The notes under the pieces: model-generated
Told to the model about the DNA's origin: nothing
Databases searched by the model: none
The model's input: only the letters and a program-made list of their open reading frames with translations
Made by a program: the position numbers and the translations under genes
Source: Candidatus Gastranaerophilales bacterium
GTDB taxonomy: Bacteria; Cyanobacteriota; Vampirovibrionia; Gastranaerophilales; Gastranaerophilaceae
Direction: 5' to 3'
Length of the DNA: 64,000 bases
Assembly (NCBI GenBank): GCA_944324865.1
Contig: CALUXW010000001.1
Coordinates: 62,001-126,000 of the forward strand
Shown: one piece after another, positions 11,310 through 64,000 of the stretch
Layout of the letters: each line of letters starts with the position of its first letter
Numbering within the stretch: the stretch's first letter is position 1

Positions 11310-12110
11310 ATGAGCAAAAATGTGTTAGTAATTGCAGGGAACTCGCAAATTGCGACAGAAGCAATAAAGTTGTTGCTAAATAATGACTTTAGGATTTATG
11401 CTACATCACGAAAAGAGTTTAATCTTGAGCATAATAATCTTCATAAATATAATCTGGATATTACCTTGGAAAGCTCTTTTAAAGAATTGTCGGATAAATT
11501 AAAAAATATGGAGTTTTGCGCTATCGTAAATAACGCAGGATGTGCAGTGGCTTCTCCCGTTGAGTTTTTAGATGAGGATGAGCTGCAAAGACAATTAGAT
11601 GTAAACTTATTTGGACTTTTACGTGTAATAAAATACTTTAGTTCAAATTTGGAAAAAGATGGAAAAATGATAAACGTAAGTTCTATGGCTTCTTATGGTG
11701 TTTATCCTTTTTTGTCGCCTTATTGCCTCTCAAAAGCTGCGGCTGATATACTTTTAAGAGCTTATTCTAATGAATCGGGTTTTAAATATGTATCTATTCG
11801 CCCCGGTGCCATAAGAACTAAATTCTGGACAGACAGTATTGAACAAAATCAAGATAATTTTAAAAATTTTATGGGCAAATATGAAAGAATTGGCCACTAC
11901 ATGCTTGATAATGCAAAAAAAAATTCAAAAGATGCATTGGAACCTATTTTTGTCGGTCGTGCCATATACAAGGCAATAGTGTGTAAAAACCCTCCTTCTG
12001 TTATAAACGTGGGGTTTGATGCGCTTTTATGTGCATTTGCTTCAAAATTTTTAAGTGAGTCACTGGTAAATAAGGTAGTAAGAAAAGCACTGAAGTTAAA
12101 ATCAAAATGA
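11310..12110 (+). CDS. Short-chain dehydrogenase/reductase (SDR)
   Basis: 266 residues of classical SDR type. The N-terminal glycine-rich NAD(P) motif is a variant (VIAGNSQIA). 'IVNNAGCA' at about residue 75 is the NNAG motif. The catalytic Ser lies in 'INVSSMASYG' and the Tyr-x3-Lys in 'YCLSKAA'; 'IRPGAIRT' completes the cofactor region. Substrate cannot be told from sequence. Its last four bases overlap the ATG of the radical SAM gene (ATGA), so the two are translated together and may act on the same lipid or secondary product. Confidence 0.88.
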   Translation: MSKNVLVIAGNSQIATEAIKLLLNNDFRIYATSRKEFNLEHNNLHKYNLDITLESSFKELSDKLKNMEFCAIVNNAGCAVASPVEFLDEDELQRQLDVNLFGLLRVIKYFSSNLEKDGKMINVSSMASYGVYPFLSPYCLSKAAADILLRAYSNESGFKYVSIRPGAIRTKFWTDSIEQNQDNFKNFMGKYERIGHYMLDNAKKNSKDALEPIFVGRAIYKAIVCKNPPSVINVGFDALLCAFASKFLSESLVNKVVRKALKLKSK

Positions 12111-13513
12111 AAAAGAAAAAGATTTATTTAATATATCCGCCTTCTCCTGTTATGAACAGGGAAGATCGTTGTCAACAGCCAACAAATGATTTAATTGTTA
12201 TTCCGCCGTTACCTCCAACAGATTTGCTTTACCTTGCTGCAATTGCACGACAAGAAGGCTATGAACCCATTGTCAGGGATTACTCTTTTTTTGGTGAAAC
12301 ATTTGAAAAATTTGAGCAAGATTTATTGCTTATGCAGCCTGATTATTTGGTTGTAAATATTGCGACACCAACTCTTGAAAATGATTTACATGCACTTAAA
12401 ATAGCAAAAGATTTGTTTGGGGATAATATAATAACTATCTCAAAAGGCGCTCATTTTGCCTTTTTGGCTAAGCAAACAATGCTTGCACATGATTTTATTG
12501 ACATTGCTATGTGTCTTGAGTGTGAACTTACTTTTGCTGAATTATTAAAAGGCATTAATTTAGAAAAAATAAAAGGGATTTGTTATCGAAATGATGTCGA
12601 GGTTATCGAAAATCCGCGCAGACCTTTTAATGATAATTTAGATGATTTACCTTATCCTGCAAGAGATTTAATTGACAATAAACTATATGTCAGACCTGAT
12701 AATGGGAAAATGCAAGCAGTTATAAAAGTTTCAAGAGGTTGTCCTTATCATTGTTTCTTTTGTTTAGCAACACCGCTAAATGGCCGAATAGTTAGGAAAA
12801 GAAGTCCTGAAAACATTATTGGTGAGATTAAAGAGTGTGTAGAAAAATATAATATTAAAAATTTTATATTCTGGTCTGATATATTTAATTTGGATAAAGA
12901 ATGGACAAGGGAACTGTGTCAAAAAATTATTGATTCAAAATTAAAAATAACATTTTCAACAAATACACGTGCCGATAGTGCAGATATTAAAACTGTTAAA
13001 CTTATGAAAAAAGCAGGATGTTCTCTTGTTTCAATCGGTATTGAAAGTGGTTCACAAGAGATGTTGGATAAAATGGGTAAAAAAACAAATCTTGTTCAAA
13101 TTAAAAATACAATAAATGTATTCAAAAAAAATGGAATACAAATTTATGCATATTATATTATTGGTCTTCCTTGGGAAACGAGAGATACAGTGTTTAAAAC
13201 TCTTGAGTTTGCTAAGTCACTAAACACTGAGTATGCAAGTTTTTACACGGCTGCAGCTCTTGTGGGAACAAGATTTTATGATTATGTTGAAAATAATTCG
13301 TTGGGTGAATTAAATTATGATTGCGCATATTACTATCCCAGTGTAAGAACCCATAGTTTGAGTGAAAGAGAGGTATTCAACCTGCATAAAAATCTTGTCA
13401 GAAGTTATTATTTACGTCCAAATTATGTATTAAAAATGTTACTTTCAATAAGATCTTTTACCCAGCTTAAAAATTATTTTAAAGCTGGTTTAAGAATAAT
13501 AACCAGAAACTGA
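12107..13513 (+). CDS. B12-binding-domain radical SAM protein
   Basis: 468 residues. The N-terminal ~150 residues form a cobalamin-binding-like Rossmann domain ('IYLIYPPSP', 'PPTDLLYLAAIARQEGYE', 'DYLVVNIATPTLENDL'), although no clear D-x-H-x2-G B12 motif is visible. The radical SAM core has the Cx3Cx2C cluster motif in 'SRGCPYHCFFC' (about residue 210) and 'IGIESGSQEMLDKMGK'. The architecture matches BchE/HpnJ-type enzymes, which perform methylations or oxidative rearrangements. Cotranslated with the SDR gene. Substrate unknown; a role in lipid or hopanoid-like modification would be a guess. Confidence 0.87.
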   Translation: MKKKKIYLIYPPSPVMNREDRCQQPTNDLIVIPPLPPTDLLYLAAIARQEGYEPIVRDYSFFGETFEKFEQDLLLMQPDYLVVNIATPTLENDLHALKIAKDLFGDNIITISKGAHFAFLAKQTMLAHDFIDIAMCLECELTFAELLKGINLEKIKGICYRNDVEVIENPRRPFNDNLDDLPYPARDLIDNKLYVRPDNGKMQAVIKVSRGCPYHCFFCLATPLNGRIVRKRSPENIIGEIKECVEKYNIKNFIFWSDIFNLDKEWTRELCQKIIDSKLKITFSTNTRADSADIKTVKLMKKAGCSLVSIGIESGSQEMLDKMGKKTNLVQIKNTINVFKKNGIQIYAYYIIGLPWETRDTVFKTLEFAKSLNTEYASFYTAAALVGTRFYDYVENNSLGELNYDCAYYYPSVRTHSLSEREVFNLHKNLVRSYYLRPNYVLKMLLSIRSFTQLKNYFKAGLRIITRN

Positions 13514-41348: not shown

Positions 41349-41696
41349 TTATTTTTTTGTTTTTATAATCCACTTTAAATTTGTATTAATTCCGGCAAAA
41401 ACACTATTAAGATCAGGTAGATATTCATATTGAGAAATATTTTCTTTTAGTTCTTTAAAATCATCCCCGTTTATATTTTGACCACTGCACTCTTGCCAGC
41501 CTTGGGGAATTTGTTCTCCATACCAAAGAATTATTGCACCTACAGGCAAGCCGTTGTTTTGATTTACAATTATTTCTTGAGGTGGTTGTTTTGACTTTTT
41601 TGTCATAACCGGTGCCATAACAACCATTGCTATTGAAATCAAAAGAACAGTTATAAGCATTTCTGCAAGCGTAAATGCTCTAATTTTTTTATCCAT
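41349..41696 (-). CDS. Prepilin-like protein fused to a phage-tail-collar-like segment
   Basis: 115 residues. Type III prepilin signal 'IRAFTLAEMLITVLLISIAMVVM' (residues 5-27): the mature N-terminus would be Phe8 with Glu at mature position 5, although the residue before the cleavage point is Ala, not Gly. After a charged linker the sequence 'LPVGAIILWYGEQIPQGWQECSGQ' (about 50-73) matches the phage tail collar motif (G-x-I-x-x-F/W ... P-x-G-W-x-x-C-x-G). Last gene of the minus-strand set that begins at the riboswitch. Acceptance by prepilin peptidase is inference. Confidence 0.76.
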   Translation of the reverse strand: MDKKIRAFTLAEMLITVLLISIAMVVMAPVMTKKSKQPPQEIIVNQNNGLPVGAIILWYGEQIPQGWQECSGQNINGDDFKELKENISQYEYLPDLNSVFAGINTNLKWIIKTKK

Positions 41697-41724
41697 AGTT
41701 TATATTTTACAATATTAATTAATT

Positions 41725-42213
41725 TTATTTCAAGCTATTTTTATATCCATTTTTTGCAGAGTAATTTCTTATGTATTCAAGTAATGCACCGCCTATTTCC
41801 TCTGTTGGGTCAAAATATAGGCTATTTGGGTTTATAATTTGCTTTATTAGCATCCTGTTTAGTGGGCCAAAGGCATCTGGTACAAGTGTTTTTCTGTATA
41901 TTCCTGACAACATAACCTGTATATCAGGTGAATCCGAATTATTAAATCTGCTCAAAGTCGGGTACATCTTATCAATTCCCTTAACTCCAATATCGAGCAT
42001 TCTGTTTAAAATATATAGGCCATCAAGAATGCTTCTTGTGTCAGATGTTGTTTTTAGTATATTTTCAATATATGGTAATGCTGTCTCCCTTTCTTGAAGT
42101 ATTTTATCTGTTTTTTCTTTGTCAAAGCAGCAATAATTTTTTGTTGAGTTAGCGCTTTTTACGTTTTTTCCGAGGTGTTGTATGCCAAATGCAACAATAG
42201 GATTAATTTGCAT
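41725..42213 (-). CDS. HEAT-like repeat protein
   Basis: 162 residues, no signal peptide. AAAGGA precedes the ATG. The opening 'MQINPIVAFGIQ' is reminiscent of the 'MKIN..' N-termini of the genes at 22558 and 24403. The body is helical ('ALPYIENILKTTSDTRSILDGLYILNRML', 'SDSPDIQVMLSGIYRKTLVPDAFGPLNRM') like Armadillo/HEAT units, and the 'DAFGPLNR' turn matches 'DAIGPIRR' in the broken gene at 23637. Lies 10 bases from the membrane protein gene upstream, so it belongs to the riboswitch-led operon. Confidence 0.7.
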   Translation of the reverse strand: MQINPIVAFGIQHLGKNVKSANSTKNYCCFDKEKTDKILQERETALPYIENILKTTSDTRSILDGLYILNRMLDIGVKGIDKMYPTLSRFNNSDSPDIQVMLSGIYRKTLVPDAFGPLNRMLIKQIINPNSLYFDPTEEIGGALLEYIRNYSAKNGYKNSLK

Positions 42214-42223
42214 GATATCCTTT

Positions 42224-43750
42224 CTATGAATATATAAATGGAGGTCCGTTCTTTATTTCAAGTAATATATTATCAGCCATTATTTTAAGTTCTTCGGGTG
42301 GTTTGCCTTCTTTTTTCTTGCGTTTAAATTCTTCCATTAGTGGCTCGATAGCGCTTTGTTTTTTAGCCTTAAAGTTGTTTATTTCAACTTCTACAAGTTT
42401 TTTTTGCAGCTCTAGTTCCGTGTTTGCATTTTCCTTTATCACGGCAGCATCTTTCATTGCCTCTGATGCCTGCTGTACAATGAAACTGGTAGAACTTATT
42501 AATGCCATTGCAAAAAATAAGTCCTTTAAATATGGGTTATCCAGGTGTATAAGCCAGTTATATAAGTGACCTCTTGTTTCATTTAGATAGCAGTAAAAGA
42601 AGGATTTTCCGCTTTCGGTACTCATGCCTGTCGGTGCATTGCCCCAAATATTTTCAACATTGTCGGATACTTTTTTTATTATTTGCTTTACGCTTTCATT
42701 ATCAAATCCTGCATTTATTGCATACTCCTCGGCCTTTTTAGAACTTGCACCCATTTTAATTAATGTGTCTACAAGTAGTGATTCGTCTTTTGTTTTATTT
42801 TTTACTATTTTATCTAGAATTGCTTGTTTGCCATCCATAAAACTTTTAACATATTTTTCTTGTAATTTAGCACCTGCTCTAATATTTTTGAGAGTAATCA
42901 GTCCTAAAATCATTCCTGCGCCTAGCAGAGCACCAGATACAATTACAAATGGATTCATTAAATCTTTTATGGAAAACTTTTTTTCATCATTAGTTTTTTT
43001 ATTACCCTTGAAATTAAAATGCTTAAAATATATATCCTGTGCAGAACCGTTATCATTACTTTGTTCCAGCGCGCTTTTAAAGTAGTTTCCGCTTTGTGCA
43101 AGAATATTACGTTGTATGGCAAGTTTTCCTGAAAATGCACGTGCTTCAACTTCAATCAAGTTTTCCTGGAGTTCTTTTTGTACTTGTGCGTCTTGCTTTT
43201 TAACCCATATCTCTTTAATACCTTCTATGAATTTTTTAGCTGTGAGTGTTAGTGCACTAAAGGCAAAAACTGCAATTGCAGCCAGTATATTCTGTCTATT
43301 TGGGTCGCGTAAAGCCATGTATGTAGCAAATCCTGTTTCCTCGACAATATTTAAGTTCATACCCATTGCAGGTAATTGTTTTACTGTCGGTACATTAAGA
43401 TTTTTAATTGCAGATTTTTTAAATAACAGGCTAAGCAATGCACTTGATGCAAAAATTCCTGCAGTGCTTATAATAAGTGGTAATAGTGCTTTTTTAGTGT
43501 TGTATACGTCGCTTTTTAAATCTTTGTCAATGAATTTGTCTATATTTATATCTTCGTTATCTGATATAACAAGTGCATTATATGTGTCATCAAGATTTGT
43601 TTCGTTTCGATTATCACTATCTTTTATAAAATTATTAACAACCACTCCTTCTAGAGTTGCATTTTTTTGTTTTAGTTGTCTGTTTGTTAGGTATCTGCTA
43701 CTAATATGATTATAGGTTGTTGGTGTTTTGTTTATTTTCAGCTCTGGCAA
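42224..43750 (-). CDS. Multi-pass membrane protein of unknown function
   Basis: 508 residues from a TTG start at 43750, preceded by GGAAG; there is no in-frame ATG until residue ~130, and the TTG is inside the end of the previous gene (41-base overlap). Hydrophobic helices at about 88-110 ('LLPLIISTAGIFASSALLSLLF'), 150-170 ('ILAAIAVFAFSALTLTA'), 270-295 ('FVIVSGALLGAGMILGLITL') and 420-440 ('FFAMALISSTSFIV'), separated by long charged coiled regions. One loop has an 'FNFKG' motif. No transporter signature. Second gene of the riboswitch-led operon. Confidence 0.74.
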   Translation of the reverse strand: MPELKINKTPTTYNHISSRYLTNRQLKQKNATLEGVVVNNFIKDSDNRNETNLDDTYNALVISDNEDINIDKFIDKDLKSDVYNTKKALLPLIISTAGIFASSALLSLLFKKSAIKNLNVPTVKQLPAMGMNLNIVEETGFATYMALRDPNRQNILAAIAVFAFSALTLTAKKFIEGIKEIWVKKQDAQVQKELQENLIEVEARAFSGKLAIQRNILAQSGNYFKSALEQSNDNGSAQDIYFKHFNFKGNKKTNDEKKFSIKDLMNPFVIVSGALLGAGMILGLITLKNIRAGAKLQEKYVKSFMDGKQAILDKIVKNKTKDESLLVDTLIKMGASSKKAEEYAINAGFDNESVKQIIKKVSDNVENIWGNAPTGMSTESGKSFFYCYLNETRGHLYNWLIHLDNPYLKDLFFAMALISSTSFIVQQASEAMKDAAVIKENANTELELQKKLVEVEINNFKAKKQSAIEPLMEEFKRKKKEGKPPEELKIMADNILLEIKNGPPFIYS

Positions 43751-44450
43751 TTTCTTCTTCCTTGTCTTTTAGGGTAATTAGTTTCCTTAGTGTTTCTTTT
43801 AATTTTTCTATTTCAAATTGTTTAAATACTCTGAGTTCATCTTTATCTTTTTCATCTTCATATTCATCATCTAAACCAAAAAGTGCTAGAAGTTTTCTTG
43901 TGTGTTTTTTTAATGATTTTATTGATTCAGATATTTTCTTTTCTACAAAGTTTTGCATTTCCCCTATTAATGCTGCAACTTTGTCAGCAACATTAATAAT
44001 CATTGTTTTTATATTTTCTGCTACAAATGGCAAATTACGCATAATTTGTGGAAAATTTTTAATGATATTAAGCATCGGTTTTAAAATATTATTTGATATT
44101 GTTCCAAAAACTTTTGCTAATGGTTTTGGTAAAGTGTTTTGAATTTTATCAAGAATGCTGCTGACAGTATTTGTAAGGTGAACAAGTTGTTTTTGTATTT
44201 TTTCAGCAAGTTGTGCATTTTTTAGCATTGCCTCTTGCATTAACTGTTCCCTTGCTTCGGAACGTTGCATTTGTTTCCATTGGGCATAACACTCTTGATA
44301 AGTCATTTCGCCAGGTCGTCTGGGCTCGTCTGTTCTTTTAGATGTGCTACCACCTCCCATACCATTGCATATTGGGCAAGCACCAAGGGGTAATCCATGT
44401 GGGCAGGTGTTTGCATTGTTATTATTCACCTGTGACATATAGCCTGTCAT
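43710..44450 (-). CDS. Cys/His-knuckle, helical protein under cobalamin riboswitch control
   Basis: 246 residues. The N-terminus 'NTCPHGLPLGACPICNGMGGG' places Cys16, His18, Cys25 and Cys28 in a compact possible zinc site. The rest is helical and partly amphipathic: 'ILDKIQNTLPKPLAKVFG', 'NILKPMLNIIKNFPQIMRNLPFV', 'VADKVAALIGEMQNFVEKKISESI', with an acidic stretch 'DDEYEDEKDKDE'. AAGGAA five bases before the ATG is part of the riboswitch P13 stem, so translation should fall when cobalamin binds. No family recognised; not a known B12 transport or synthesis protein. Confidence 0.76.
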   Translation of the reverse strand: MTGYMSQVNNNNANTCPHGLPLGACPICNGMGGGSTSKRTDEPRRPGEMTYQECYAQWKQMQRSEAREQLMQEAMLKNAQLAEKIQKQLVHLTNTVSSILDKIQNTLPKPLAKVFGTISNNILKPMLNIIKNFPQIMRNLPFVAENIKTMIINVADKVAALIGEMQNFVEKKISESIKSLKKHTRKLLALFGLDDEYEDEKDKDELRVFKQFEIEKLKETLRKLITLKDKEEEIARAENKQNTNNL

Positions 44451-44455
44451 AAAAA

Positions 44456-44590
44456 TTCCTTGTGCTATTCAACCGCAGCGCAAGGAACTCATTACCCATA
44501 TCGGTACACGCAATGATGGGAATTATAAGTTTTCCGACTTTACGGCTGCGGTCCAGTTAAGGATTTTCACCTTATTTCCTTTTTGTAAAG
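44456..44590 (-). promoter_or_regulatory. Cobalamin riboswitch with SD-sequestering P13
   Basis: Minus strand. The conserved core reads G-G-A-A-A-T-A-A-G-G-T-G-A-A-A-A-T-C-C, then C-T-G-G-A-C-C-G-C-A-G-C-C-G-T-A-A (plus-strand about 44537-44580). The loop C-C-G-C-A-G-C (plus 44545-44551) is perfectly complementary to G-C-T-G-C-G-G (plus 44473-44479), the classic L5-L13 kissing pair. P13 itself pairs T-T-C-C-T-T-G (plus 44481-44487) with C-A-A-G-G-A-A (plus 44456-44462), the latter being the Shine-Dalgarno of the gene starting at 44450. This is a translational OFF-type platform as in btuB leaders. Confidence 0.92.
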
Positions 44591-44645
44591 CTATATTATC
44601 ATCAACGAAATATAAATGCAAACTTATTTATGTTATTATTTTTTC

Positions 44646-45437
44646 ATGCGAACAGTTGTGGTAATACCTGTATATAAAAATAATCCAAATGATAATGAAT
44701 TAAATTCTTTAACCCAATGCGCAAAGATTCTGCAAAAACATGATATTTGTCTTGTTTGTCCAATTTCGCTCGATGTGTCTATATATAAGAAAATATTTTC
44801 TAACTGTAATTTTTTTGTTACCACATTTAATGATTTTTGGTTTAAATCTGTTGAAAATTATTCACATTTGCTCTTACGTCGGGATTTTTACGAAAGTTTT
44901 AAAAATTATGATTTTATGTTAATATACCAGACTGATGCATGGGTGTTTAAAGATGACTTGTTGTTTTGGTGTTCTCTGAATTATTCATATATTGGTGCTC
45001 CTTGGTTTAATGGGCAGAAGATGTTGAATTATGCAGGTAACGGTGGTTTTTCATTAAGGAAGGTTTCTGATATGCTTAGGCTTTTAAGTCATGATAAGAA
45101 TATAAAGCTATCTTTCAATGATTTTTCACAAATTCACTATAAATATAAAAAACCTCATCTTGTTGTAATATTATTTTTAAAATTTATATTACATTTTTTT
45201 GATAATAAGCCTTTTTTCAGAACCGTTCCCTTAAATGAAGATGTTGCTATTGTTAAATTTTCATCAAAATTTGATGCTGAATTCAGAGTTGCCCCTCCAG
45301 ATATTTGTAAAAAATTTTCTTATGAAGTAAATCCTGAAATTTTGTATAAAATTAATGGTGGTTTATTGCCTTTTGGCTGTCATGCATATTTAAAATATAA
45401 TCCTGAATTTTGGAAAAGTTTTATCGAAATAGTTTGA
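44646..45437 (+). CDS. DUF5672 family (glycosyltransferase-like) protein
   Basis: 263 residues from ATG 44646 ('MRTVVVIPVYK'); the frame extends ten codons upstream. It carries the DUF5672 core 'YDFMLIYQTDAWVFKDDLLFWC' (D-x-D-like donor site) and 'YSYIGAPWFNGQ...GNGGFSLRKVSDMLRLL'. The family is GT-A-like and often found with surface polysaccharide genes; acceptor unknown. No ribosome site is obvious. Single gene, divergent from the riboswitch operon. Confidence 0.85.
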   Translation: MRTVVVIPVYKNNPNDNELNSLTQCAKILQKHDICLVCPISLDVSIYKKIFSNCNFFVTTFNDFWFKSVENYSHLLLRRDFYESFKNYDFMLIYQTDAWVFKDDLLFWCSLNYSYIGAPWFNGQKMLNYAGNGGFSLRKVSDMLRLLSHDKNIKLSFNDFSQIHYKYKKPHLVVILFLKFILHFFDNKPFFRTVPLNEDVAIVKFSSKFDAEFRVAPPDICKKFSYEVNPEILYKINGGLLPFGCHAYLKYNPEFWKSFIEIV

Positions 45438-45855: not shown

Positions 45856-47307
45856 TTATTTTTCCAGTTCTTTTTTTAGAATTTCATTTAGCATTTGAGG
45901 GTTAGCTCGACCTTTTGTTTCTTTCATAATTTGTCCTACAAAGAAACCAAAAAGCTTGTCTCGACCGTTTTTGTATGCTGCAACTTGCTCGGGATTTGCT
46001 TCAACCACTTTTTTAGCAAGTTCTTCAAGCTTGTTTGCATCAGAAAGTACGCTTAGTCCTTTTTTCTCAACTAGCTGCTGTGCATCTTCTCCTGATTTTA
46101 ATATTTCAACTACAAGTTGCTTCGCTATATTATTTGAAATTGTACCTTTTTCTAGCATTAAAAGAAGTCTTACAAAGTTTTCAGTACTAAGTTTTGTTTC
46201 ATCAATTGAGATTTTTTCTTCTTTAAGATAAGCAGCAATTTCGCCCATAAGAAAGTTTGATGCTGTTTTAGCGTTTGCGCCTAGCTCAAGTACTTTATCA
46301 TAAAACAGGGCAATATCCATTTGATTAACTATCACATTTGCATCATACTCACTCAAGCCAAGTTCAACATATCTGTTGACTTTTTGCAGTGGTAACTCAG
46401 GCATTGAATTTCTTATTTCGTTAATCCATTCTCTGCTTATTTCAAGAGGCATAAGGTCAGGTTCTGGAAAATAACGATAGTCATGTGCATCTTCTTTGCC
46501 ACGCATTGAAGATGTAGTGCCAGTGTTGTCATCCCAAAGCCTTGTTTCTTGTATTACTTCTCCACCTTCTTCGACAATTTCAACCTGTCTTTCAAACTCA
46601 TATTCAATTGCTCTTTGTAAGGCTTTAAAACTGTTCACATTTTTAATTTCAGCCCTGGTGCCAAATTCTTTTTGTCCGCGTGGACGTATTGATATATTAG
46701 CATCTGCACGCATTGAGCCTTCTTCTAAATTACCGTCACAGACACCAATATATCTTAATATATTTCTTAATTGTTCAACATATTCCCTTGCTTCTTCAGA
46801 AGAGCGCATATCCGGCTCCGAAACTATTTCAAGAAGTGGCGTACCTGCACGGTTTAAATCTACCAGTGAATATGAAGAACCATATAAACCAGCAGCGCCT
46901 GCATGCACAAGTTTGCCCGCATCTTCTTCTAAATGTGCACGAGTGATTCCTATTTTTTTATTTGAAATTTGCACCCAGCCACCAAGGCAAATTGGCTCGT
47001 CAAATTGTGATATTTGGTACCCTTTTGGCAAATCGGGGTAGAAATATTGTTTTCTGTCAAATTTACATCTTTTAGGAATTTCCGAATTAAGTGCCAGACC
47101 GGTTAATATACCCATTCTAACAGCCTCTTTATTTAAGACAGGTAATACACCTGGCATTCCGAGTGTGATTGGCGAAGTTTGTGTATTTGGTTCTTTTCCA
47201 AATTCCGCACCATCGGGGGCAAATATTTTAGTTTTAGTTTTGAGTTGAGCGTGTACTTCAAGACCAATTACCATTTCATATTTATTTTTCATATCTTCAA
47301 GTGACAT
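45856..47307 (-). CDS. gatB: Asp/Glu-tRNA(Asn/Gln) amidotransferase subunit B
   Basis: 483 residues from ATG 47307, preceded by AAGGAG; an upstream frame extension to 47349 has no ribosome site. Family hallmarks: 'YEMVIGLEVHAQLKTKTKIF', 'KRCKFDRKQYFYPDLPKGYQISQFDEPI', 'ITRAHLEEDAGKLVHAG', 'SLVDLNRAGTPLLEIVSEPD', 'GSMRADANISIRPRG' and the C-terminal helical tail domain ('FFVGQIMKETKGRANPQMLNEILKK'). Works with GatA and GatC to form Gln-tRNA and Asn-tRNA. Confidence 0.97.
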   Translation of the reverse strand: MSLEDMKNKYEMVIGLEVHAQLKTKTKIFAPDGAEFGKEPNTQTSPITLGMPGVLPVLNKEAVRMGILTGLALNSEIPKRCKFDRKQYFYPDLPKGYQISQFDEPICLGGWVQISNKKIGITRAHLEEDAGKLVHAGAAGLYGSSYSLVDLNRAGTPLLEIVSEPDMRSSEEAREYVEQLRNILRYIGVCDGNLEEGSMRADANISIRPRGQKEFGTRAEIKNVNSFKALQRAIEYEFERQVEIVEEGGEVIQETRLWDDNTGTTSSMRGKEDAHDYRYFPEPDLMPLEISREWINEIRNSMPELPLQKVNRYVELGLSEYDANVIVNQMDIALFYDKVLELGANAKTASNFLMGEIAAYLKEEKISIDETKLSTENFVRLLLMLEKGTISNNIAKQLVVEILKSGEDAQQLVEKKGLSVLSDANKLEELAKKVVEANPEQVAAYKNGRDKLFGFFVGQIMKETKGRANPQMLNEILKKELEK

Positions 47308-47450
47308 GTTTTCTCCTTGCTTCAAGCTATTATAACAAATATACCACAAAAAAATTTATAAAAAAGTTAATAATTCTTAATATTATCTTATTTTTTGGCA
47401 CATATTTTGACTTGTTTGAGTTTATTTATATATGGAAGTGGAGTACAAAT

Positions 47451-48221
47451 ATGAGTTATCCTTTATATAATCAACAGCAATATATGCCTCAGGCTGTTCC
47501 TACTGCATCTTGTGGTGCTGTATCTATTAATATAATGAATCCTACTACAGGTATGACAAATCCCATGGGCCCGTCGTATCAAAACGCTTTATATCAGTAT
47601 CCTGTTGCTAATTATTATGGTAATCAGCCTATGCAAATGCCATATCCTGCTAACTATAACAATAATATTAATACTAATACTAGTAGTCCTCTAAATAGTG
47701 TTGCTAAGGATAACAATAATCCTGTTCCGCCTGCACCAACAGTTGAAAGTTCAAAAACTGCCAATGAAAACAAGACTGACAAGGAAGATGAAACAAAAGA
47801 AAAAATTCCATTAACGGATGATTATATTAAAACATTAGAAAATTATTTAAATTCTCAAGATTCTAAAGTAAGATTAATGGGTGCAAAAGACGTATTAGAA
47901 AGATTTAAAGAGGATTCTAGCAGAAAAAATGATGCTGCACTTACTGCATTGTTGAATAAAATTTTACAAGATCCTAATTCTGCTGTCAGATTCCTGGGTT
48001 TAACTACTCTTGATGCAGGTTATGCTCTTGGTAATGAACAAACAATTGAATTACTAAAAGCAATTCAATCTGATGGTCAAAAAGAATATGGTGAAGATTC
48101 ACTTCTTGCTTCTCAAATTTTGTTAAGACTAAGTGCAGGTGAAAAAGTTAAATTTACGCCCGAGAACACCGATAAAAAACAAGATACAAATGAAGTGAAT
48201 AGTGAGGAGGCTAAACAATGA
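47451..48221 (+). CDS. Pro/Gln-rich HEAT-repeat protein
   Basis: 256 residues from ATG 47451 (GGAG upstream; the frame is open from 47301 but that part overlaps the gatB promoter). N-terminus rich in Tyr, Gln, Pro, Asn: 'YNQQQYMPQAVP' then 'CGAVSINIMNPTT'. A Pro/Thr/Lys linker leads to HEAT repeats at about 120-230 ('TLENYLNSQDSKVRLMGAKDVLERF', 'DPNSAVRFLGLTTLDAGYALG', 'LASQILLRLSAGEKV'). No signal peptide. Four-base overlap with the next gene. The same N-terminal plan occurs in the gene at 48778. Confidence 0.78.
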   Translation: MSYPLYNQQQYMPQAVPTASCGAVSINIMNPTTGMTNPMGPSYQNALYQYPVANYYGNQPMQMPYPANYNNNINTNTSSPLNSVAKDNNNPVPPAPTVESSKTANENKTDKEDETKEKIPLTDDYIKTLENYLNSQDSKVRLMGAKDVLERFKEDSSRKNDAALTALLNKILQDPNSAVRFLGLTTLDAGYALGNEQTIELLKAIQSDGQKEYGEDSLLASQILLRLSAGEKVKFTPENTDKKQDTNEVNSEEAKQ

Positions 48222-48664
48222 ATCTTTTAAACATTGCTTCTAAGAGTGCTGCTTTACTTGCTGCTTCTACTTCTTTGTATGATGCACACAAATTAGGAGT
48301 AAGAGAAGCAAATATAAAGCGTGAAAGTAATTATGCTGACGACTTCATTGCACAAAACATAGGGGCATCAAAGTTAAATTACCCAAGTGAAAAGCACAAT
48401 GTTATGAAACAATGGATTATGGATTTTCAGTATCCTTTGCAATTATCAGAAGTATGGAATACCGTTTCAGGCTATGTAACTGGTGCACTTAAGGGTGTAT
48501 TATTAAATGCAGGAACACTGGCATTTTCCGCTCTTGCGTTTTTTGCAAAAAAAGATGGGTGGAAAAAGGCAGGTGTTGCTGGTTTAGGCCTGTCGGTCGC
48601 ATGGGATTTCCTAACAAATAGTACAAATTTATTTGAAAAAACAGACTATTTGAGAAAAAAGTAA
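48218..48664 (+). CDS. Small membrane-associated protein of unknown function
   Basis: 148 residues. ATGA overlap with the HEAT gene. The N-terminus 'LLNIASKSAALLAASTSLYDAHKLGVREANI' is alpha-helical without a signal peptide. The C-terminal half has a hydrophobic stretch, 'LKGVLLNAGTLAFSALAFFAKKDGWKKAGVAGLGLSVAWDFL', that can form two membrane helices. No family recognised. Coupled to the HEAT protein, so likely a membrane partner. Confidence 0.7.
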   Translation: MNLLNIASKSAALLAASTSLYDAHKLGVREANIKRESNYADDFIAQNIGASKLNYPSEKHNVMKQWIMDFQYPLQLSEVWNTVSGYVTGALKGVLLNAGTLAFSALAFFAKKDGWKKAGVAGLGLSVAWDFLTNSTNLFEKTDYLRKK

Positions 48665-48777
48665 ATGCCTGTGTAAATTTACAAAACTTTATATTTTTGT
48701 AAAATGTAGCAATATTTTTTTATCACAAGATTTATAACAACTGTTAAAATGAATTTTATTTTAAAAGGAGAATATAC

Positions 48778-49905
48778 ATGATACAACCGCAGTATTTTCA
48801 ACAGCAATATCCGCAAGCACCTTCTGCAGTTAGCATTAATATTTATGAACCAAAGAGTTATGGCTCTGCACCTGCGCAGCAAGCCCCATATGCATACTCA
48901 AATCAATTATATGGCATGCCTCAATCATCTGCATGGTCGCAACAACCTTTAAATTATGCGCAATCCCCTTATCAACAATATGCTATTCCGCAAATAATGC
49001 CTCAAGCAGCTATTGGACAGCCTGTTGAAACCAGCCCGGTTGTAAATCAACAATTTGATATGGCTCAACCTGTAGCACCGCAGCCAATGCCTCAAACTGC
49101 TATTGATGCCCAACAAAATCCGCCCGTTGCAGATTCTGCTCAACAAAGTGAAATGCCCGAAGTTGAACAAGGTCAAGAGACTCCAAAAGTTAATGCAGAT
49201 GCACTTTTAGCTGATTTAAAAAGCCCCGACTATAATGTGCAAAATGAGGCCATAACTTCTATTGCAAACTTTAGTCAATCAACACCGGACATTGCTTTAC
49301 AAGTAGTTACCGATCCTATTAAGCAAGCCCTGGTTGACATTATCAAAACAGATACATCTGCCTTACCTGATTTAACAGATGAACAAAAGGCAATTTCGGT
49401 TAAAAAGGAAAAAGGTGAGGAAATTACACCTGAAGAACAAGCAACTCTCGATAAGTCTTCGCCAAGGATAATGGCTGATAAAAACAGAGTATTTGCATTA
49501 TTTACTTTGGCAATGATTCAAAAATTATCCAGAGATAATGAAGCACAATATGCTCAATTCCAATCTGAGCAAGGTAAACAAGCACCATCACAACTTGCCC
49601 TAAAGGATTTAATGGGATATAACGAAATAGTAAACACAATTCAAAATGATAATAATGGCCAGTTACGTGCAGCGGCTATTCAAGCACTTCAATATATAGC
49701 TAAACCTGAAGAAAAGGCTGAAGTTGAACAAATATTACAACCTGCACTAAATGATAGCGATGAATCAGTAAAACAAGTTGCACAAGATGCGCTTTCTAAA
49801 CTGGGCCAAGCACCACAGGAAGGTGAAACAACTCAAGAACAGGAAGTTGCAACAAATAACGAAACACAAAAAGAACAAAATCAGGAAGAGGTAAATAAAG
49901 CATAG
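48778..49905 (+). CDS. Pro/Gln-rich HEAT-repeat protein (paralog)
   Basis: 375 residues with AAGGAG before the ATG. N-terminal ~130 residues are Gln/Pro/Ala-rich ('YFQQQYPQAPSAVSINIYEPKSY', then repeated P-Q-x motifs). It shares 'QQQY-PQA...AVSINI..P' with the gene at 47451. The C-terminal half has HEAT repeats ('LADLKSPDYNVQNEAITSIANFSQ', 'DNNGQLRAAAIQALQYIAKPEEKAEVEQIL', 'LNDSDESVKQVAQDALSKL'), ending in an acidic Gln/Glu tail. Ends in a strong terminator at 49951. Soluble; function unknown. Confidence 0.8.
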   Translation: MIQPQYFQQQYPQAPSAVSINIYEPKSYGSAPAQQAPYAYSNQLYGMPQSSAWSQQPLNYAQSPYQQYAIPQIMPQAAIGQPVETSPVVNQQFDMAQPVAPQPMPQTAIDAQQNPPVADSAQQSEMPEVEQGQETPKVNADALLADLKSPDYNVQNEAITSIANFSQSTPDIALQVVTDPIKQALVDIIKTDTSALPDLTDEQKAISVKKEKGEEITPEEQATLDKSSPRIMADKNRVFALFTLAMIQKLSRDNEAQYAQFQSEQGKQAPSQLALKDLMGYNEIVNTIQNDNNGQLRAAAIQALQYIAKPEEKAEVEQILQPALNDSDESVKQVAQDALSKLGQAPQEGETTQEQEVATNNETQKEQNQEEVNKA

Positions 49906-63010: not shown

Positions 63011-63162
63011 TAAAAATTTTATTTAACTTTTTCATGATTGTCAAATTATTAACAAATGCATTATGTTAATTTTTGTTAATTTCGTTTTATCTAATTCTTA
63101 CTTTATTTAACCGATATTTAAAAATAATACTTCACACATGATCTATATTGGTATTATTATAA

Positions 63163-63271
63163 AAATGTATCTTAAGGAAAGCAAGGGTGCAAGTCCCTCA
63201 CTGGTCCGCAGCCGTTACAGTCGGAATGCTTATTATACATTTGTATTACGAGACTAATAGGAGTTTTTCTC
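63163..63271 (+). promoter_or_regulatory. Cobalamin riboswitch upstream of ribonucleotide reductase
   Basis: Core G-G-A-A-A-G-C-A-A-G-G-G-T-G-C-A-A-G-T-C-C-C, then C-A-C-T-G-G-T-C-C-G-C-A-G-C-C-G (63176-63215). P1 pairs A-A-A-T-G-T-A-T (63163-63170) with A-T-A-C-A-T-T-T (63235-63242). A hairpin, T-A-T-T-A / T-A-A-T-A with loop C-G-A-G-A-C, immediately precedes G-G-A-G (63260-63263). No G-C-T-G-C-G-G partner for the core loop is seen, so this expression platform differs from the one at 44456. Confidence 0.88.
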
Positions 63272-64000
63272 ATGCAGAATGCATTTAACAGTGACGATAA
63301 GGTCGTTAAATTTAAACCACTTGTTTTTGGTGAAGCTGTCAATGTTGTCAAGGAAGCAAATAAGGATTTCAGACAACAGTTTGTTAATGATGTTGATTGT
63401 AATTTAAGTTCTATTTGTATTGTCAAAAAAGATGGTACCAAGGAAAGATACAATGTAGATAAAGTTGTAAATGCCGTAAAGAAATCTGCATCAAGAATGC
63501 TTATAGAATTTAATAATAATGATATTGCTAAAATATGCAATTACGTGAATAAGAATGTATTGCTTCTTAATAAGTGCGAAGTTGATATTTTGGATATACA
63601 TAATATAGTTGAAAGTGCGCTTGAAGACATAAATCCAAAAGTAGCCCAAAGTTATAGAAACTACAGAAATTATAAGACTGACTTTGTGAAAATGTTGGAC
63701 AAGGTATTTCAAGAAAGTCAAAAAATTATGTATATAGGTGATAAAGAGAATTCCAATGCTGATTCTGCACTTGTGTCGACTAAACGTTCATTAATTTTTA
63801 ATCAACTAAATAAAGAACTTTATAAAAAGTTTTTCCTCACAGTCGATGATCTACAAGCAGTTCGTGATGGTTATATTTATATTCATGATATGCCTGCACG
63901 CAGAGATACGATGAATTGTTGCCTTTTTGATGTTGCAAATGTTTTAAAAGATGGTTTTGAAATGGGAAATTTATGGTATAACGAACCAAAAACACTTGAT
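63272..64000 (+). CDS. Ribonucleoside-triphosphate reductase, N-terminal part (3' end outside window)
   Basis: 243 codons, open to the window end. AGGAG lies nine bases before the ATG. An ATP-cone (about residues 48-140: 'ICIVKKDGTKERYNVDKVVNAVKKS') is the allosteric nucleotide-binding domain. The reductase barrel begins 'DGYIYIHDMPARRDTMNCCLFDVANVLKDGFEMGNLWYNEPKTLD', which carries an active-site Cys pair as in class II/III enzymes. B12-riboswitch control suggests an enzyme whose expression is adjusted to cobalamin: either a cobalamin-dependent class II enzyme or its B12-independent backup. The N-terminal part cannot decide between class II and III. Confidence 0.83.
   Translation, partial: MQNAFNSDDKVVKFKPLVFGEAVNVVKEANKDFRQQFVNDVDCNLSSICIVKKDGTKERYNVDKVVNAVKKSASRMLIEFNNNDIAKICNYVNKNVLLLNKCEVDILDIHNIVESALEDINPKVAQSYRNYRNYKTDFVKMLDKVFQESQKIMYIGDKENSNADSALVSTKRSLIFNQLNKELYKKFFLTVDDLQAVRDGYIYIHDMPARRDTMNCCLFDVANVLKDGFEMGNLWYNEPKTLD

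Follow-up and report, generated by a model that had tools for sequence, protein, structure and literature searches.

Why does a cobalamin riboswitch stand in front of genes that show no recognizable connection to vitamin B12? The question is raised by a locus on the minus strand of a 64,000-nucleotide stretch of DNA (G000:C1:62001-126000; the window, by which we mean this whole stretch), taken from the draft genome (1.79 Mb) of a Gastranaerophilales bacterium. We find a riboswitch of familiar type controlling three protein families that are without annotation. These three genes, referred to here as the unit, are good candidates for an unrecognized route of obtaining or handling B12, because they are kept under a B12 switch in genomes where B12 is needed and where known importers and a key synthesis gene were not seen. 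The elements of the locus are as follows.

44519 to 44591, minus strand: cobalamin riboswitch aptamer, assigned to the AdoCbl-II (adenosylcobalamin) class by Rfam model RF01689 (match at 44523-44588) and by our covariance model R1
about 44494 to 44520, minus strand: peripheral stem between the aptamer core and P13
44456 to 44487, minus strand: P13 hairpin, in which TTCCTTG (44487-44481) pairs with CAAGGAA (44462-44456)
43710 to 44450, minus strand: gene 1, a protein of 246 amino acids with an N-terminal CPHGLPxGACPIC motif followed by long helices (reading frame and alignment)
42224 to 43750, minus strand: gene 2, a membrane protein of 508 amino acids with about four transmembrane helices and a conserved C-terminal tail (alignment and hydropathy)
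41725 to 42213, minus strand: gene 3, a protein of 162 amino acids with a conserved C-terminal half (YRKTLVPDAFGPL...DPTEEIGGA)

The original prediction, made from the DNA alone, had placed a cobalamin riboswitch on this strand and had named a covariance-model search as the test that could refute it; that search returned a significant match instead, with RF01689 scoring 38.1 bits over a threshold of 36.5 (E=1.8e-5). The prediction had expected the large cobalamin class, RF00174, to be the fitting model, and in this it was mistaken, as RF00174 reaches 27.7 bits in the window, under its threshold of 31.5. RF00174 does pass its threshold in family f3 (L189-L191), whose aptamer fits that model instead. 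Model R1, built from 28 leaders of the anaerobic ribonucleotide reductase gene nrdD and then run against 93 loci, scores the unit aptamer at 54.1 bits (E=9.5e-14, with the window's DNA as locus L010); having been trained on nrdD leaders alone, it tests the linkage of leader and unit without circularity.

The leader also has the architecture expected of a switch acting on translation. The Shine-Dalgarno sequence of gene 1, AAGGA, sits within the 3' arm of P13, as had been claimed, and L5 (ACCGCAG, 44552-44546) can pair with L13 (CTGCGGT, 44478-44472) over the predicted seven bases, although three of these overlap the 3' strand of P5, leaving a kissing pair proper of 4-5 base pairs. Across 15 leaders from the genus, the proposed structure has 94% of its cells paired; displacing the partners by 1-3 columns lowers this to 29-50%. 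In the peripheral stem, 7/7 pairs have changed on both sides, and the P13 cells (95% paired) and kissing cells (97% paired) are mostly invariant; P4-P6 are uninformative on pairing because they are invariant. Among 70 leaders of the order, which are related sequences and not independent, the stem over the Shine-Dalgarno beats the shuffle mean in 59. By covariance-model score and pairing pattern, we regard it as confirmed that the leader of the unit is a cobalamin riboswitch of the AdoCbl-II class.

The riboswitch travels with the unit well beyond the window. Among 146 genomes of the window's family, gene 2 is present in 123 and RF01689 is matched in 135, and R1 detects an aptamer ahead of gene 1 in 76 genomes, which represent five families. 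Our script confirmed 75 of these 76 aptamers as lying on the strand of gene 1, 99-286 nucleotides before its Cys motif; the 76th genome has its RF00174 match about 170 nucleotides ahead of gene 1 (L189). Because about 21 of the 76 aptamer-bearing loci had been fetched via their riboswitch, the fair counts of linkage are those from loci fetched by protein, in which an aptamer lies upstream of gene 1 in 28/30 loci fetched by gene 2 alone and in 9/9 loci of families f3, f5, f6 and f7 fetched by gene 1. An apparent absence of the riboswitch in L184 and L185 proved to be an artefact of the Rfam threshold, as the nrdD-trained model matches both at E<1e-13. Relatives carrying the genes without the leader, which would have spoken against a functional link, are limited to G142, where the unit lacks the leader, and G109, where gene 2 occurs without gene 1; the leader is otherwise conserved.

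Within this linkage, the genes are not equally constant. In most loci gene 3 lies downstream of gene 2; in family f3 and one f6 genome, genes 1 and 2 occur without it. In genera g26 and g31 the expected place of gene 2 is taken by a second gene 3 in tandem (L135, L136, L139, L140 and L141). The riboswitch thus has its constant partner in gene 1, and the conserved unit probably comprises genes 1, 2 and 3. The original prediction had described a four-gene operon, and its coordinates and spacings were accurate: genes 1 and 2 overlap by 41 bases, gaps of 10 and 28 bases separate genes 2 and 3 and genes 3 and 4, and all four genes run in the same direction. The last of them is nevertheless lineage-specific and was rejected as a member, since among the loci read its position after the unit is confined to the window's genus and g37.

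41349 to 41696, minus strand: gene 4, a prepilin with a phage tail collar domain (PF07484, 28.6 bits)

Its N-terminal methylation motif matches PF07963 at 24.1 bits (cut-off 21.2) and PF07484 is likewise over its cut-off, in agreement with the predicted fusion. We also rejected an origin in mobile elements, as gene 2 was unmatched in plasmids and gene 1 in phages. On the other side of the riboswitch lies a divergent gene for a DUF5672 protein (44616-45437, plus strand; 157 bits).

The products of the unit are as unfamiliar as had been supposed, for none matches a characterized system. Genes 1-3 have no credible relative in Pfam, NCBIfam or the PDB, and profile searches of the PDB gave helical-bundle and designed-protein matches only. 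Gene 1 keeps eight invariant residues in 34 relatives (C16, P17, H18, G19, C25, P26, C28 and C54); its Pfam match to Baculo_PEP_C, found in 23/34 members, is one among many to long-helix families and was taken as an effect of composition. Gene 2 contains an internal duplication whose halves align at E=5e-9 (hhalign). The HEAT-like character proposed for gene 3 did not hold up, as its 22 members gave no match to the HEAT profile or to any other Pfam family. By hydropathy, neither gene 1 nor gene 3 has a signal peptide or membrane helix. AlphaFold2 models of genes 1 and 2, built from ten same-genus sequences, had a mean predicted local distance difference test score (pLDDT) of 52, too poor to judge the fold, and a Foldseek search of the PDB with the gene 2 model, itself of that poor quality, returned nothing at E<=0.001. 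Our literature search found no paper describing the families of genes 1-3 and none joining Gastranaerophil- and riboswitch. Elsewhere in the window, two proteins matching HEAT repeats (one over cut-off) flank a protein of 148 amino acids without assignment (47301-49905, plus strand), with no relation to the riboswitch seen.

A second cobalamin riboswitch, overlooked in the original prediction, lies in the window itself.

63157 to 63238, plus strand: second cobalamin riboswitch, the nrdD leader (RF01689, 35.2 bits, E=1.4e-4, just under the threshold of 36.5)
63272 to 64000, plus strand, running past the window: nrdD, anaerobic (class III) ribonucleotide reductase (TIGR02487, 552.7 bits, over cut-off)

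A likely activase gene also lies downstream of this riboswitch, and about 30 more nrdD leaders in the family bear the same element. The genome also encodes the adenosylcobalamin-dependent class II reductase NrdJ (C20:5058-7247; PRK08665, 993 bits, over cut-off), and the pairing of NrdJ with a riboswitch-led nrdD fits the classical logic by which NrdJ is used and NrdD shut when B12 is present. In one genome, two cobalamin riboswitches stand back to back, with the unit on one strand and nrdD-nrdG on the other (L217; G119:C6:91500-95522). Near nrdD in the window's own genome, a gene for a DtxR-like regulator adjoins one for a membrane protein of 335-340 amino acids (L008:7639-9108, minus strand), and in G134 the same pair lies immediately upstream of the unit (L219:2818-4331, minus strand); this membrane protein (340 amino acids, L008:8086-9108) was considered as a relative of gene 2 and rejected, no relationship being detectable.

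The same riboswitch also precedes genes resembling those for B12 import. In genus g19, where we found no gene 1, gene 2 or NrdJ, it stands before a TonB receptor in 4/4 genomes read (L130-L133), with BtuC- and BtuD-like genes following where the contig extends far enough, and it lies ahead of receptor-permease genes in G038, G066, G160, G161, G163 and G165. The NCBIfam matches of receptors and permeases in G054, G038 and G066 include TonB-B12 and BtuC, all below cut-offs. Two further leaders have other neighbours: one lies directly before a protein of 467 amino acids resembling a B12-binding radical SAM enzyme (L149; G032:C1:219802, plus strand), and another before a short unrecognized reading frame, with no unit, nrdD or btuB after it (L147; G012:C7:7656, plus strand).

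If these bacteria need B12 for NrdJ, how do they come by it? The absences reported here come from single-family searches of draft genomes, which in the window's genome covered CobS, FecCD (PF01032), the TonB plug (PF07715) and EcfT/CbiQ (PF02361) and did not include BtuM. Neither CobS nor EcfT/CbiQ was matched in this genome or in 23 others of the family; FecCD was found in 1/24 (G066) and the TonB plug in 2/24 (G066 and G004), with neither in the window's own genome. In the complete pathways known for cobalamin synthesis, CobS acts at a late step, and because it was not matched, these species probably cannot make cobalamin. The only match to a B12-binding domain in the window's genome is a radical SAM protein (12107-13513 of the window, plus strand), whose best NCBIfam matches, HpnJ and BchE, are sub-threshold. 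Published Melainabacteria genomes have been reported to make B2, B3, B7 and B9, and the gut types also B5, with B12 unmentioned in the text (PMC3787301).

Gene 1 and NrdJ tend to occur in the same genomes. Among 50 family genomes, gene 1 and full-length NrdJ are both present in 26, both missing in 14 and found one without the other in 10 (Fisher p=7e-5, uncorrected for phylogeny and with about half of the genomes selected for having no gene 2 or no riboswitch). Five genomes have NrdJ without gene 1, four of which are at most 89% complete, and all five genomes of genus g27 are without the riboswitch, gene 2 and full NrdJ. Among NrdJ-bearing genomes sampled across the order, CobS or BtuBC occurs in 4/5 of those without the unit versus 3/29 of those with it (p=0.003, likewise uncorrected), the latter figure becoming 4/29 if the lone receptor of G004 is counted.

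These observations lead us to propose, with a probability of roughly one half, that the unit serves B12-repressed cobamide acquisition in a broad sense, meaning uptake at the envelope, capture and handling for NrdJ, or both. With cobamide bound, the L5-L13 kissing pair, an architecture present in the leader, would stabilize P13 and hide the Shine-Dalgarno; when cobamide is scarce, P13 would open and genes 1, 2 and 3 would be translated. Judging from its hydropathy, gene 2 would reside in the inner membrane, genes 1 and 3 may be its soluble partners, and the Cys/His motif of gene 1 could perhaps bind a metal or the cobalt of the corrin, with the acquired cofactor serving NrdJ. The narrower idea, that the unit is a cobamide importer of three families without detected relation to BtuBFCD or ECF (energy-coupling factor) systems and spread across most sampled Gastranaerophilales families, we put forward only tentatively. 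The original prediction had guessed at a new B12 acquisition system, and probable auxotrophy, the lack of the tested importer families and the riboswitch on btuBCD-like genes lend support to that guess; transport itself we infer.

Several observations weigh against this proposal. No transporter fold, ATPase or outer-membrane component was recognized among the unit proteins, nor any signal peptide, and the fold models of genes 1 and 2 are too poor to judge; G080, which is 99% complete, has NrdJ without the unit, and the converse, the unit without NrdJ, occurs in G003, G123 and G142; the counts for gene 1 with NrdJ and for CobS or BtuBC are uncorrected for phylogeny and drawn from a sample partly selected for lack of gene 2 or of the riboswitch. 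The loss of gene 2 in g26 and g31, where the order runs riboswitch, gene 1, gene 3, second gene 3, in genomes with NrdJ, and the coexistence of the unit with BtuBC in four species (G038, G066, G160 and G165) make intracellular handling the foremost rival. Under that explanation, which we consider rather unlikely, the unit would serve cobamide storage, trafficking, support of adenosylation or loading of NrdJ while an unrecognized system imports it, and there is precedent for co-regulation of adenosylation genes with import in the btuFCDR genes of B. subtilis (PMC9600662). This rival overlaps our proposal, part of which is handling, and differs in denying the unit any role in import. It leaves import unexplained in genomes without a CobS, FecCD, plug or CbiQ match, however, and sits poorly with a membrane protein as widespread in the family as gene 2.

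If the unit answered B12 shortage without acting on cobamide at all, for example as a B12-independent substitute or in support of the NrdD route, this would accord with nrdD, a B12-independent isozyme, being the other common riboswitch target of the family and with the back-to-back arrangement in G119; we judge it improbable, as none of the three proteins has an enzyme-like domain and many leaders place the unit and nrdD at distant sites under separate riboswitches. The idea of a surface system, which the original prediction had also raised, rested on the prepilin. The case for an envelope or surface structure that handles no B12 but whose expression follows B12 for ecological reasons could draw on the membrane protein, on the prepilin adjoining the unit in the window's genus and on adhesin-like genes reported under cobalamin riboswitches in Cutibacterium acnes (PMC9600381), but conservation of the unit does not extend to the prepilin, the unit co-occurs with NrdJ, and the hydropathy of genes 1 and 3 offers neither an export signal nor a membrane anchor, so that we hold this more doubtful still. 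That the leader element fails to work as a cobalamin riboswitch, or responds to a different ligand, seems very improbable: in the window it exceeds the Rfam threshold by a small margin and the assignment rests on sequence, but its position and pairing are conserved over five families and the same aptamer stands on nrdD and btuB-like genes.

Cobamide acquisition in the broad sense remains our preferred proposal, and three unannotated genes could explain how common gut bacteria obtain a needed cofactor for which, by these searches, they lack a synthesis step. If the unit does import cobamide, it would be an additional way of taking up B12 and would bring a new element into the competition for cobamides in the gut; if it only handles the cofactor, these would still be unannotated families tied to B12.

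Comparison with known systems places the novelty in the controlled genes. The leader shares with AdoCbl-II riboswitches (RF01689, clan CL00101) the aptamer core, the L5-L13 kissing pair and a hairpin over the Shine-Dalgarno, and the aptamer itself is no different; only the genes under it are unusual. The riboswitch-led nrdD of the same genome (63157-63238) has the same aptamer class and the same expected off-logic, yet nrdD is a characterized B12-independent isozyme, whereas the unit is unannotated. The btuB-btuC-btuD(-btuF) operons that this class of riboswitch controls elsewhere in the order and in the family (L130-L133, L143 and L145) share the expected off-logic; the unit, however, has no TonB receptor, ATP-binding cassette permease, ATPase or binding protein, and some species have both. 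BtuM of Thiobacillus denitrificans, described as a predicted B12 transporter in which a Cys ligates cobalt (Rempel 2018, cited in PMC8123684), is, like gene 2, a membrane protein outside BtuFCD and ECF-CbrT, and its cobalt-ligating Cys may be compared, by analogy only, with the invariant Cys residues of gene 1; BtuM is a single protein and ours a three-gene unit, and we set the two side by side by description and not by homology.

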